A DNA stretch of 56,848 bases from Zhihengliuella sp. (GTDB lineage Bacteria > Actinomycetota > Actinomycetes > Actinomycetales > Micrococcaceae), in contig NZ_JAPSJL010000013.1 in the NCBI RefSeq assembly GCF_031178195.1, positions 1 through 56,848 of the forward strand. Direction: 5' to 3'. The notes below the pieces were generated by a model. It had not been told where the DNA came from and did not search any database. It saw nothing but the letters and a program-made list of their open reading frames with translations. Numbering within the stretch: position 1 is the stretch's first letter; each line of letters opens with the position of its first letter. Positions 11,277 to 41,573 of this stretch are shown in pieces. The translations under genes and the position numbers were made by a program.

Positions 11277-12362
11277 TCAGGCCTCGGCCTGGCCGCGCCA
11301 GAGGTCGACGCCGGTCTCCCCGGACGTGATCCGGTCGATCAGGTGCAGCTCTTCGTCGGAGAACGGGGACGCGTCGAGGGCGCCGAGATTCTCGTCGAGC
11401 TGCGCCGTCGACGACGCGCCGATCAGGACCGAGGTCGCCCCGCCGTCGCGTAGCAGCCACGCGAGCGCCATCTGCGCGAGCGTCTGGCCGCGCTCCTCGG
11501 CGACCCGGGCGAGGTTGCGGACGATCGAGAGGTTCTCCGGCGTCAGTCCGCGCAGGGAGGTGCGGCCGCCGCTCGGGGTCGCGTTCTCGTCCGTGAGGTA
11601 CTTGCTGGTCAGGAGGCCCTGGGCCAGCGGGGTGAACGCGATGGAGCCCATGCCCTCCCGCTCCAGGGTCTCGAGCAGGCCGTCCTCGACCCAGCGGTTC
11701 AGCAGCGAGTAGGAGGGCTGGTGGATGACGAGCGGCGTGCCGAGGTCGCGGGCGACCCGCGACGCCTCGGCGGTGCGCTCGGCGGAGTAGGAGGAGATGC
11801 CGACGTAGAGGGCCTTGCCCTGGCGCACCAGCGTGTCGAGGGCCCCGATGGTCTCCTCGATCGGGATCTCGGGGGAGGGGCGGTGGGAGTAGAAGATGTC
11901 GACGTACTCGAGGTTCATGCGTTTCAGCGAGGCCTCGGCCGAGGCGAGGAGGTACTTGCGGGAGCCGCGGCTTCCGTACGGGCCGGGCCACATGTCCCAG
12001 CCGGCCTTCGAGGAGACGACGAGCTCGTCGCGGTACGGCGCGAAGTCCTTGGCCACCATGCGGCCGAAGTTCTCCTCCGCGCTGCCGAAGGGCGGACCGT
12101 AGTTGTTCGCCAGGTCGAAGTGGATGATGCCGTGGTCGAACGCATGCCGGAGGATCTCGCGCTGGAGATCGAAGGGGCGGTTGTCGCCGAAGTTCCACCA
12201 GAGGCCCAGGCTCAACGGCGGGAGCATCAGGCCGGAGCGCCCGACGGCGCGGTACCCGATCGCGTCGTAGCGGTCCTCGGCGGCGACGTAGGGGCGGTGC
12301 GTCTCGACGACGCGGTCACAACGGAACTCTTCCACGGGGAACTCCTCGAAGTATGGGGTCAC
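11277..12362 (-). CDS. Aldo/keto reductase, YghZ (glyceraldehyde-3-phosphate reductase) type
   Basis: A 361-aa NADPH-dependent reductase of the AKR14/YghZ group. It detoxifies small aldehydes such as L-glyceraldehyde 3-phosphate or methylglyoxal in relatives. The catalytic tetrad is visible as Asp83, Tyr88, Lys119 and His160 (HFDLANNYG, VSSKAGWDMWPGPYG, FYSHRPSP), and the N-terminal LGLWWNFGDN is diagnostic of YghZ. The frame is open about 60 codons further upstream, but that part is Arg/Pro-rich and runs through the structured element at 12475-12580, so the GTG at 12362 is preferred. The start has no good free Shine-Dalgarno. A GC hairpin ends 7 nt before it, and the intergenic element lies about 110 nt upstream, so the leader may be regulatory. 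Confidence 0.88.
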   Translation of the reverse strand: MTPYFEEFPVEEFRCDRVVETHRPYVAAEDRYDAIGYRAVGRSGLMLPPLSLGLWWNFGDNRPFDLQREILRHAFDHGIIHFDLANNYGPPFGSAEENFGRMVAKDFAPYRDELVVSSKAGWDMWPGPYGSRGSRKYLLASAEASLKRMNLEYVDIFYSHRPSPEIPIEETIGALDTLVRQGKALYVGISSYSAERTAEASRVARDLGTPLVIHQPSYSLLNRWVEDGLLETLEREGMGSIAFTPLAQGLLTSKYLTDENATPSGGRTSLRGLTPENLSIVRNLARVAEERGQTLAQMALAWLLRDGGATSVLIGASSTAQLDENLGALDASPFSDEELHLIDRITSGETGVDLWRGQAEA

Positions 12363-12369
12363 TGTGTGT

Positions 12370-12389
12370 CGTCCGCCCTGGGGCGGACG
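12370..12389 (-). promoter_or_regulatory. Hairpin directly before the aldo/keto reductase start
   Basis: An 8-bp perfect stem (12370-12377 with 12382-12389) with a 4-nt loop. In the mRNA its 3' arm ends 7 nt before the GTG, where the ribosome binding site should be, so it would hide the only G-rich candidate. Control of translation is an inference. Confidence 0.35.
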
Positions 12390-12474
12390 TCGGCGGGGCC
12401 GCCGGGAGCGGGCCCGCGGGCCGGTGCTGTCGCAACCGGCCCCTGGGCGCATTCTGCCACCGGACATGAGAGAA

Positions 12475-12580
12475 GCACCGGCCGGATGCGGACAAGGAGG
12501 CGATAAAACCGCATTCGACCGGTGCTTCGTGATCACTCGCACCTTGAGAAGGTGGAACCAGCCTAGGATGCGTTTCTTGG
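12475..12580 (-). ncRNA. Structured intergenic element A (candidate small RNA or leader)
   Basis: This element is homologous to the one at 13152-13247. On the minus strand it reads, in order: CCAAG, CGC-n-TCCTA, a -10-like TAGGCT (12565-12560), a small hairpin CACCTT-CTC-AAGGTG, the conserved GCGAGTGAT, and a long hairpin closed by GCACCGG/CCGGTGC followed by TTCTCTC. Taken together this looks like a promoter, a short transcript of about 85 nt and an intrinsic terminator. It lies between two terminators on the right and the aldo/keto reductase gene on the left. I do not recognise a known RNA family. A duplicated protein-binding region is the main alternative. Confidence 0.4.
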
Positions 12581-12690
12581 AACGGGCTGAACATCAGGTC
12601 GGAGTGCCCTGTGGCCTCGGGACTGCCGCCGGCGCCTCGCTGCCGGCCGGCGACACGCCGGAGAAGCAGCGCAGAAACAGCGCAGAAAGG

Positions 12691-12720
12691 GACGGGCCGG
12701 CCCCGGTGGGCCGGCCCGTC
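12691..12720 (-). terminator. Second hairpin after the 60-aa protein gene
   Basis: Perfect 12-bp stem (12691-12702 with 12709-12720), 6-nt loop. It separates the small-protein gene from element A. The rest of the gene-free stretch 12363-12774 holds element A, the hairpin at 12370-12389 and the terminator at 12734-12771. Confidence 0.6.
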
Positions 12721-12733
12721 CGCCGTCGCACGC

Positions 12734-12771
12734 GCCGGGGCTCGAGCGGCTTTCGCCGACCGAGCCCCGGC
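12734..12771 (-). terminator. Terminator of the 60-aa protein gene
   Basis: An 11-bp stem (12734-12744 with 12761-12771) with additional inner pairing, starting 3 bp after the stop codon of the small-protein gene. Confidence 0.65.
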
Positions 12772-12774
12772 GGA

Positions 12775-12957
12775 TCAGTAGTTGGAGGGTGGATCGGAGC
12801 CCGGGAACGACTCGTCGGACCACTCCTCGACGAGCTGCTCGTCGTGCTGGTGCTTCAGCTCCTCGTCGGGGACCTGCACCGGATCGTCCTCGGACTTCGC
12901 GTTCACGTCGTTCCGATCGAGGTCCTGTGGGTTCGTACCGGGTGCACTGTTGCTCAC
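12775..12957 (-). CDS. Small acidic protein of 60 aa with a DESFPGSDPPS C-terminal motif
   Basis: A short, very hydrophilic and acidic protein without cysteine or membrane segment. Its C-terminal end EEWSDESFPGSDPPSNY contains the DSFPASDPPS-like motif that recurs at the ends of many small bacterial proteins of unknown function. The GTG start at 12957 is supported by GAGAGGAG 6 nt upstream. The open frame continues upstream through the structured element B, but that part is Arg/Pro-rich and has no start signal. A terminator follows directly. Function unknown; the composition suggests a disordered protein. Confidence 0.7.
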   Translation of the reverse strand: MSNSAPGTNPQDLDRNDVNAKSEDDPVQVPDEELKHQHDEQLVEEWSDESFPGSDPPSNY

Positions 12958-13151
12958 GGGTGTCTCCTCTCCATTGGTGACTCCAGTCTGCGTCCAGATG
13001 CGCCGCTTGGCCAGAGGACCGGCCGCCGATGGCACTGCTTTGAGCAACCTCCCAGTGACCGTCCAGCTCCGGGCGGCCGTCGGGCGCAGGGGCGCGCTCC
13101 GGGGGCTCGGACGGGCCCCGCAGCGTGGATGCTCACCCGTTAAACGCAGAG

Positions 13152-13247
13152 GCACCGGTCGGCGGTTGGGGGAAACCGTTGGTCCGACCGGTGCTCTCAT
13201 CACTCGCACCTTCATGAGGTGATTCCACTGTAGGAAGCGGACCTTGG
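13152..13247 (-). ncRNA. Structured intergenic element B (candidate small RNA or leader)
   Basis: Homologue of element A (12475-12580) in the same orientation. On the minus strand: CCAAG, CGC-n-TCCTA, -10-like TACAGT (13232-13227), hairpin CACCT-CATGA-AGGTG, the conserved GCGAGTGAT, and a two-tier hairpin with 11-bp arms (13152-13162 and 13183-13193) and an inner CGGTT/AACCG stem, followed by CTCTGCGTTT. It could be a free small RNA of about 80 nt or the 5' leader of the 60-aa protein gene 195 nt away. The rest of the gene-free stretch 12958-13284 shows nothing else I can name. Confidence 0.4.
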
Positions 13248-13284
13248 GCCGTCCTGTGAAGCGAGTGTCAGCGCGGTGGGAATC

Positions 13285-14559
13285 TCAGACGGCGAACGCC
13301 GAGCGCCCGGTGATTGAGCGGCCGATGATCAGCGCCTGGACTGTCTCGGTGCCCTCGTATGTGTGGATCGCCTCGATGTCCGCGAGGTGTCGCGCCACCC
13401 GGTGCTCCAGCAGGATGCCGTTCCCGCCCAGGAGGTCGCGGGCGTTCGCGGCGATCGCGCGGGCCGTCCGGGTGCAGGTGTACTTGGCCAGCGATGCCTG
13501 CTCGGGCGTCAGGGAGCCGGCGTCCGCGCGGGCCGTCATGTGCCGCACCATCAGCTGCAGGGTCACCAGCTCGGACTGCATCCGGGCCAGCCGCTCCTGG
13601 ACGATCTGGCTGGCCGCCAGCGGCCGGCCGAACTGCACCCGCTGCTGCGCGTACTGGACCGCCGTCTCGTAGCAGGCCGTGGCGTGCCCGACGGCGGACC
13701 AGGCCACGCCGAGGCGCGTCGCGAAGAGCACCCGGGCCGTGTCCTTGAAGCTGCCCGCCCCGGGGAGGACGTGCGTGTCCGGGACGAACACGTCCTCCAT
13801 GCGGACGTGCGCCTGCCAGATGGCGCGCAGACTGAGCTTGTTCTCGATCGTCGTCGCGGTGTAGCCCTCCCACTGCTGCTCCACGAGGAAGCCGCGCACC
13901 GCGCCGTCGTCCTCGGTCCGCGCCCAGACCACCGTGACGCCGCCCTCGGGGGTGTCCGCGAGCGAGGCGTTGCCGATCCACTTCTTCTCCCCGCTGAGCC
14001 GGTAGCCGCCCTCGACCCGCGTGGCCCGGGTCTCGAGGGACACCGAGTCGGAGCCGTGCGCGGGCTCCGTCAGGGCGAAGGCGCCCCACACCTCGGCGCG
14101 GGCGAGCCGCGGCACCCAGTGCGCGATCTGCTCCGCCGAGCCGCAGTACGCCACCGAGCGGAGCGCGAGGCCGCCCTGCACGCCGCAGATGGTGCCCACC
14201 GAGCCGTCGGCGCGGGAGAGCTCCATGTTCACCAGGCCCGCCGCGAGCGTGCTCATCGGTGCGAATCCCTCGACCTCGACGCCGTCGCGCAGCAGGTCGA
14301 GCGCACCCAGGCGGCGCCCCAGGTGCAGCGGGTAGTCGGCGCGGTTCCAGTAGTCGTCGATCACCGGGCGGACGTCGTTCAGGCCGAAGTCCCGGGCGCG
14401 GGACCAGTACGCGCGGTCGGCATCCGGCACGTCGGCGAAGACGCCGGCCGGGTCGACCTCCACGTCGCCCCAGACCTCGTACGACGGCGCCTCCACGCCG
14501 TGCGGGAAGGAGTCAGCCTCCGGGGCGGGCGACGGGGCGGAGTGGGTCTCGGGGTTCAT
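13285..14559 (-). CDS. Acyl-CoA dehydrogenase, glutaryl-CoA dehydrogenase-like
   Basis: A 424-aa FAD flavoprotein that forms the alpha-beta double bond of an acyl-CoA and passes electrons to ETF. The middle domain has WGAFALTEPAHGSDS (FAD/substrate binding). The C-terminal helical domain has RVQFGRPLAASQIVQERLA and ends with the catalytic base Glu402 in TYEGTETV, where this subfamily carries it. The sequence resembles the glutaryl-CoA/short-chain branch, but the substrate is not certain. The ATG at 14559 follows GAGGGAG at normal spacing. The promoter 50-95 nt upstream has its -35 and spacer inside a palindrome, next to the tetR gene, so control by that TetR protein is likely. Confidence 0.88.
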   Translation of the reverse strand: MNPETHSAPSPAPEADSFPHGVEAPSYEVWGDVEVDPAGVFADVPDADRAYWSRARDFGLNDVRPVIDDYWNRADYPLHLGRRLGALDLLRDGVEVEGFAPMSTLAAGLVNMELSRADGSVGTICGVQGGLALRSVAYCGSAEQIAHWVPRLARAEVWGAFALTEPAHGSDSVSLETRATRVEGGYRLSGEKKWIGNASLADTPEGGVTVVWARTEDDGAVRGFLVEQQWEGYTATTIENKLSLRAIWQAHVRMEDVFVPDTHVLPGAGSFKDTARVLFATRLGVAWSAVGHATACYETAVQYAQQRVQFGRPLAASQIVQERLARMQSELVTLQLMVRHMTARADAGSLTPEQASLAKYTCTRTARAIAANARDLLGGNGILLEHRVARHLADIEAIHTYEGTETVQALIIGRSITGRSAFAV

Positions 14560-14608: not shown

Positions 14609-14653
14609 ACTATCGATGAAACTCAGTTCCAGGTCAAGGAACTGAGTTTCATC
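14609..14653 (-). promoter_or_regulatory. Acyl-CoA dehydrogenase promoter with a 16+16 bp operator palindrome
   Basis: On the minus strand TTGACC (14637-14632), a 17-bp spacer and GATAGT (14614-14609) form a near-ideal promoter. Exact 16-nt inverted repeats (14615-14630 and 14638-14653) fill the spacer and the region just upstream of the -35. Each arm is itself a near-palindrome around GGAACTGAGTTTC, so two TetR dimers could bind. It lies between the acyl-CoA dehydrogenase start and the tetR stop. Confidence 0.7.
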
Positions 14654-41328: not shown

Positions 41329-41365
41329 GAGGCAACGCGCCCGCACGGGTGCGAGCCCCTGACAC

Positions 41366-41573
41366 GCGGCGGGAGAGTCCCGACCGAAGCCACGGCCGGG
41401 CGCCGTAGGAGCAATTTCCTCCCCGGGAATCTCTCAGGCCCCCGTACCGCCGCGAAGAGGCGACTCTGGAAAGCAGCGGCCCGTCCCCGGACGGACCGCT
41501 CACCGACGGTGCAAGCGCGCCACCCCACCGGGTGGGACGTGGAATCTCTCAGGTACACCTACAGAGCGGGGAG
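41366..41573 (+). promoter_or_regulatory. Tandem glycine riboswitch
   Basis: Two consecutive glycine aptamers. The first spans about 41366-41469 with GCGGGAGAGT, CCGTAGGAGCAA, the conserved GGAATCTCTCAGGC (41426-41439) and GCGACTCTGG. The second spans about 41470-41573 with CACCGACGGTGCAAGC, GGAATCTCTCAGGTA and the closing ACAGAGCGGG. The promoter is just upstream and the gcvP start 70 nt downstream. It is expected to turn on the glycine cleavage operon when glycine is high. Edges are approximate. Confidence 0.93.

Follow-up and report, generated by a model that had tools for sequence, protein, structure and literature searches.

The window, that is, the whole stretch of 56,848 nucleotides of Zhihengliuella sp. 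DNA that was analysed, contains two similar elements, A and B, in the order acyl-CoA dehydrogenase-like gene, B, acidic 60-aa protein, A, aldo/keto reductase. R1, a covariance model made from 100 copies of other genomes (rows chosen as less than 78% alike, four of them from Zhihengliuella and none from this genome), matched just two places in the whole window, 13281-13196 (E 6e-13) and 12614-12529 (E 5.3e-11), which bears out the two homologous minus-strand elements described in a first-pass annotation of this DNA. The annotation gave their spacing as 600 bp, and the actual distance between the starts of the 5' hairpins is 667 bp. The features of the locus are the following, with the evidence used for each.

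12558..12614, minus strand: promoter-like region of A (R1 match from 12614, sequence letters, family column counts)
12587-12589, 12577-12579 and 12560-12565, minus strand: repeat units CAG and CAA and -10 box TAGGCT of A
12540..12554, minus strand: 5' hairpin of putative sRNA A, CACCUUCUCAAGGUG (letters, fold, type-A comparison)
12532..12540, minus strand: nearly invariant single strand GCGAGUGAU of A (family comparison; unpaired in the fold)
12472..12528, minus strand: 3' hairpin of A (fold; compensatory changes among relatives)
12494..12500, minus strand: anti-Shine-Dalgarno heptamer CCUCCUU in the loop of A (17/17 copies with an A-type head, 0/147 others)
13223..13281, minus strand: promoter-like region of B (letters, family column counts, R1 match)
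13254-13256, 13244-13246 and 13227-13232, minus strand: repeat units CAG and CAA and -10 box TACAGT of B
13207..13221, minus strand: 5' hairpin of putative sRNA B, CACCUCAUGAAGGUG (letters, fold, type-B comparison)
13199..13207, minus strand: nearly invariant single strand GCGAGUGAU of B (family comparison)
13152..13194, minus strand: 3' hairpin of B, GCACCGGUCGG / CCGACCGGUGC (fold, type-B comparison)
13168..13172, minus strand: CCCCC in the loop of B (letters; CCCC in this region in 23/25 type-B rows)
13139..13144, minus strand: tail UUUAAC 3' of the B hairpin (letters; family count of UUUAA tails)
12775..12957, minus strand: acidic 60-aa protein between B and A, ending WSDESFPGSDPPSNY (homologues at the same place in relatives)
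11277..12362, minus strand: aldo/keto reductase downstream of A (PF00248, E 5.3e-73; synteny)

Both elements share one layout: first a -10-like hexamer, next a short hairpin with the arms CACCU...AGGUG, then the strand GCGAGUGAU and lastly a long hairpin. The letters confirm the hexamer and the CACCT/AGGTG mini-hairpin already annotated in both. The last two repeat units of A are spaced by 10 bp, not 11. In the case of B, the 5' hairpin is present in the centroid fold, and the minimum-energy fold pairs the region otherwise. The minus strands are more stable than their shuffles (z -5.8 and -4.3, 0/200 shuffles each), but the plus strands fold nearly as stably (z -5.5, 0/200, and z -3.7, 1/200), so the orientation is not given by folding alone. 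Measured from the -10 box to the end of the stem, the predicted transcripts would have around 92 nt (A) and 83 nt (B), a revision of the 85 and 80 nt first estimated. The hairpin of A has no U-run after its stem, and no promoter-like or terminator-like site was found in 12200-13500 by the consensus of the scan.

The surrounding genes are also conserved. A and B are found at the same place in 5/5 Zhihengliuella genomes examined, with two copies at the locus in this genome and in G003, and three (two B and one A) in G001, G002 and G004. Homologues of the acyl-CoA dehydrogenase-like gene, the acidic protein and the reductase recur around A and B in relatives. The acidic protein has no Pfam match, and the match of the reductase to PF00248 corroborates the earlier assignment of the gene downstream of one copy. 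An inverted repeat, GATGAAACTCAGTTCC, with arms 7 bases apart, lies at 14615-14653, 5' of the acyl-CoA dehydrogenase-like gene, and may be an operator.

Spread, promoter-like region and stems of the family

A covariance-model search of the kind proposed in the first-pass annotation was run with R1, which matched 23/25 Micrococcaceae genomes and 0/14 genomes of other families (E 0.01). In an order-wide draw, 22/297 genomes matched, all of them Micrococcaceae (E 1e-4); two Micrococcaceae genomes (genus g3) stand among the unmatched genomes listed, beside 255 unmatched genomes that are not itemised. Matching genomes carry from one to seven copies in the set of 25 and 14 genomes, and up to eight in the order-wide draw. 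This genome has four copies by R1: A, B, C3:66563-66649 and C2:6570-6656. The twins of the annotation are thus siblings in a larger, family-wide set.

The exact pattern of hairpin and strand was found at at least 116 loci in a named genome collection. Among the matches listed, 112 were labelled as Micrococcaceae, on a placement of the listed genus names that we take to be correct, one was a full copy in an Acidobacteria MAG, and three MAG contigs were judged to be chance matches and left out (L077 and L133, both Bacteroidales MAG, and L148, Polyangiaceae MAG). With up to one mismatch, the pattern occurs in 221/395 Micrococcaceae genomes and 28/32 genera, and the reversed-pattern control gave three single matches in the rows. 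The Acidobacteria-labelled contig (L054 4933-4954) has a promoter as well as the full copy, and is probably misbinned Micrococcaceae. L077 and L133 are contigs of one MAG; in both of them the head pattern is embedded in the same surroundings, ACCTC..GAGGTGCGAGTGAT, and the promoter is missing.

The family architecture consists of a promoter-like region, a small 5' hairpin, the nearly invariant GCGAGUGAU and a strong, variable 3' hairpin. Copies that contained N or had insufficient flanking sequence were dropped, so that 152 of 158 were kept for the promoter columns, 153 for the repeat spacing and 148 for the tail. Counted from the first A of ACCT, a TAGAGT-like -10 box occupies -13 to -8, and CAG or CAA recurs at -59, -48, -37 and -26 (152 copies). 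The spacings between CAG/CAA units peak at 11, 22 and 33 bases, with 119, 92 and 68 pairs, other spacings having at most 31 (153 copies). At least three of the four units are in exact register in 53/153 copies, and shifts of 1-12 bases give at most 14. The -10-like hexamer noticed in A and B is therefore a family-wide feature, and the CCAAG that they share contains the last unit of the family-wide repeat; their shared CGCnTCCTA is not conserved in the family.

The copies share a promoter-like region with 11-bp repeats, a candidate target of a response regulator. By analogy with characterised activators, 11-bp direct repeats towards -35 are the geometry of the OmpR/PhoB-type winged-helix class. 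SARP activators have a similar repeat spacing. The comparison with PhoP of M. tuberculosis is close in one respect and not in another: according to the excerpts of PMC4832192, PhoP binds directly repeated TCACAGC units that are strictly 4 bp apart, and occupies runs of three or four such units as well, so that they have an 11-bp period too, whereas the conserved core in the Micrococcaceae copies is cCAGs. When up to two mismatches were allowed, the repeat-promoter pattern matched 33 places across five genomes, whereas its reversed control matched 14; a regulon beyond the sRNAs was rejected, since many of the 33 places are sRNA genes or look like chance. A similar CAG-repeat arrangement with TAGGCT (two mismatches to the pattern) is also seen upstream of a lipoprotein-like gene (L286, L287), and another match to the pattern lies at G004:C1:3581643-3581694.

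Conservation is strictest in the head, which stands at a nearly fixed distance from the -10 box and holds an inverted repeat. No two-sided change was found in the 5' hairpin across the family alignment, partly because the search fixed its bases, and some divergent copies keep its pairing with other loop lengths or G-U pairs. The long stem of type A (16 sequences) showed two-sided changes in 7/13 pairs against 3.6 in shuffles, 24 two-sided cells against 8.1 and a covariation score of 0.257 against 0.134, with 0/500 shuffles as high in each case, although further pair types were not above shuffles (340/500 as high). In type B (25 sequences) the covariation score was above shuffles (0.138 against 0.109, 0/500 as high), but two-sided changes, in 2/11 pairs, were not (208/500 as high). 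Since type B was selected by the start of its stem, the conservation of its outer stem letters is by choice. The type-A alignment leaves out L040 and L065, whose CCTCCTT lies outside the hairpin loop, and includes L085 and L126 as manual additions; the type-B alignment leaves out L092, L129 and a second copy from L085, although the filter had caught them.

From these alignments, the 3' stem of subtype A is under structural selection, as judged by its compensatory changes. The selection for RNA structure suggested in the annotation is thereby sustained for type A, where the changes are not random, and more weakly for type B, and its GCACCGG/CCGGTGC closing stem is present in some subtypes without being a mark of the family. 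At the end of the strongest stem, UUUAA was found in 49/148 copies of other genomes against 1/141 control stretches. The tail CATGYC 3' of the stem, at 7/148 copies against 4/141 controls, was discarded as a family feature.

C-rich loops and target searches

A loop with CCCC or CCUCC is present in the 3'-part hairpin of 128/171 copies (CCCC in 114, CCUCC in 15), compared with 87/855 dinucleotide shuffles, a count in which some copies enter twice (Z. salsuginis L058/L034; MS50-16 L079/L023). The remaining 43/171 have 3' hairpins without a C-rich loop, the dispersed genus copies L029 and L030 among them. Type A was first selected by its CCTCCTT loop (16 rows), so the identity of the loop in those rows proves nothing; to avoid this circularity, the type was later defined by the 5' loop TTCTC alone. 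Under that definition, copies with the 5' loop UUCUC carry CCUCCUU in the 3' hairpin in 17/17 cases, against 0/147 in the other copies, and the stem around the heptamer varies while the heptamer stays constant.

Searches for a single dedicated target were negative in both regions. The extended complement of the A loop occurs at 66 places in five genomes, five of them the A gene itself, with 26 for the reversed control, and the 30/66 places viewed by eye had no clear ribosome-binding site. The complement of GCGAGUGAU occurs at 13 places in this genome, four of them sRNA genes, with three for the reversed control, and no clear ribosome-binding site or target was seen at any of the 13. These results would suit a broad action of the RNAs; they do not show such action. 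A small coding gene was also considered and rejected, as the ATG of some copies needs a G at +7, which is present in 32% of copies, as A has no such ATG, and as the 3' part varies in length.

Interpretation and comparison with known systems

We consider it probable that A and B encode trans-acting sRNAs that are siblings, alike in their constant head and variable in their tail, and that belong to an apparently undescribed Micrococcaceae family, as far as sequence comparison can tell. This interpretation is built on the family spread, the 11-bp phasing, the C-rich loops, the CCUCCUU and compensatory stem of type A, the varied neighbours and the precedents discussed below. An OmpR/PhoB-type winged-helix activator, either a response regulator or a SARP, would bind the repeats and activate the siblings jointly, giving transcripts of about 80-95 nt. 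Their C-rich or CCUCCUU loops would pair with G-rich ribosome-binding sites, in such a way that ribosomes would be kept off several mRNAs, and by analogy with known systems the loops probably block mRNA translation. The constant head may protect the 5' end, and would probably bind a common RNA-binding protein. Of the readings in the first-pass annotation, which had neither the family-wide scale nor the 11-bp-repeat promoter nor the anti-Shine-Dalgarno and C-rich loops, that of twin small RNAs is the one that survives, given the few copies per genome and the compensatory changes.

The annotation had also proposed paralogous leaders, and the elements could start the mRNA of the next gene, with the hairpin ending or passing transcription. 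This fits best at A itself, where the reductase lies on the same strand 78-417 nt 3' in 13/15 distinct A loci whose downstream sequence is available, counting the one in this window (three further A copies without downstream sequence are outside the count), and in several relatives homologues of the acidic protein separate a B-type copy from an A-type one. We find it unlikely nevertheless, because the distance to the reductase varies so widely, the gene being 1.8 kb away at one of the two exceptional loci and not found within 3.3 kb downstream at the other, because tandem copies exist, and because copies elsewhere have differing neighbours, several of the downstream clusters being convergent or unrelated. 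The largest neighbour cluster (39 frames at 30 loci, from 154 copies) is a proC-like gene, named by eye, that is read away from the sRNA. Such varied neighbours and convergent clusters fit independent RNA genes.

That the head acts mainly as a DNA signal, an operator or an element of the initially transcribed region, with the RNA incidental, would explain its strict conservation, its inverted repeat and its nearly fixed distance from the -10 box. It seems rather improbable to us, as the two-sided compensatory changes of the 3' stem and the conserved loop letters point to RNA, and divergent copies maintain the pairing of the 5' hairpin with other loop lengths. A non-regulatory interspersed repeat or mobile element, the former considered in the annotation in a genus-specific form, might account for near-identical heads at several places per genome, some in tandem. 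However, the 1-8 copies per matching genome, with four here, are far from the hundreds that the annotation had named as refuting its reading, gene order is conserved around A, B and the copies adjoining the proC-like gene, viral contigs have no exact head match, and neither the 11-bp phasing nor the compensatory changes would be expected, so that this explanation is highly improbable.

Within the preferred interpretation of sibling sRNAs, a bolder version is offered tentatively, as a possibility that we hold doubtful: the head AAGGUGCGAGUGAU could be a tag for an sRNA-binding protein of the Micrococcaceae and define a matchmaker-dependent class with interchangeable 3' hairpins under one regulator of the 11-bp repeats, in which subtype A would act as a free mimic of the 3' tail of 16S rRNA. 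To our knowledge, the Micrococcaceae lineage has no known Hfq. The letters of the A loop in Paeniglutamicibacter copies, UCACCUCCUU, are presumably ten bases of that 16S rRNA 3' tail. The putative sRNA set offers sibling RNAs, a common promoter code through which a regulator should be traceable, and a constant 5' handle as protein bait, in a large bacterial group that occurs in soil, on skin and in food. With subtype A, the idea that one free anti-Shine-Dalgarno loop can govern many mRNAs at once could be put to a sharp test.

The earlier statement that no known family has this pattern agrees with our searches. At gathering score, Rfam 15 gave no match at A or B in the window, nor at any of the copies when 18 loci from relatives were searched; its only match elsewhere in the window is a glycine riboswitch at 41360-41459 on the plus strand (RF00504, 64.1 bits). 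M23, which scored 17.4 bits near the elements against a gathering score of 41.2, was dismissed as a chance match at E up to 5. No described sRNA family of this kind in Micrococcaceae was found in Rfam or in the open-licence literature searched. The 6C model (RF01066) had no gathering-score match in the window, no match in 12300-13300 even with E relaxed to 5, and none in five genomes of the genus, the latter in a low-sensitivity search in which 1/14 control genomes matched, below the cut-off. The 6C architecture of two hairpins with around six C per loop is also absent, since the 3' hairpin holds the single C-rich loop of each element, and for both reasons the putative sRNAs are not 6C. In two other Micrococcaceae genera, C-rich multi-hairpin RNAs match the 6C model (L188 and L190, from 1500 each); neither has the GCGAGTGAT head in the stretch inspected, and the genome of L190 has no R1 match.

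As working models for the mechanism, by analogy, we take the csRNAs, LhrC and B11/6C (PMC4507080, PMC4132741, PMC10470900, each in excerpt). The likeness to 6C/B11 is that of actinobacterial small RNAs with C-rich hairpin loops (excerpts of PMC10470900 and PMC4046766), which in B11 pair with ribosome-binding sites (PMC10470900, in the same excerpt), but 6C has two C-rich hairpins and in the excerpted descriptions appears without the Micrococcaceae head. Two traits of the csRNA and LhrC kind are present in our family, namely several homologous copies per genome (four here) and unpaired stretches, rich in C or CU, that are complementary to ribosome-binding sites (128/171 copies; 17/17 of type A). 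In S. pneumoniae, as excerpted from PMC4507080, similar csRNAs under CiaR pair additively near the ribosome-binding site of mRNAs; several similar sRNAs are seen in both cases, under a single response regulator in Streptococcus and a regulator that is only proposed here. In L. monocytogenes, the excerpt of PMC4132741 describes five copies of LhrC under LisRK with redundant CU-rich pairing sites, and the multiple copies and redundant unpaired sites are the features in common. Both systems belong to another phylum, and the pairing sites of LhrC are CU-rich; the likeness proposed to csRNAs and LhrC is one in the way of working.
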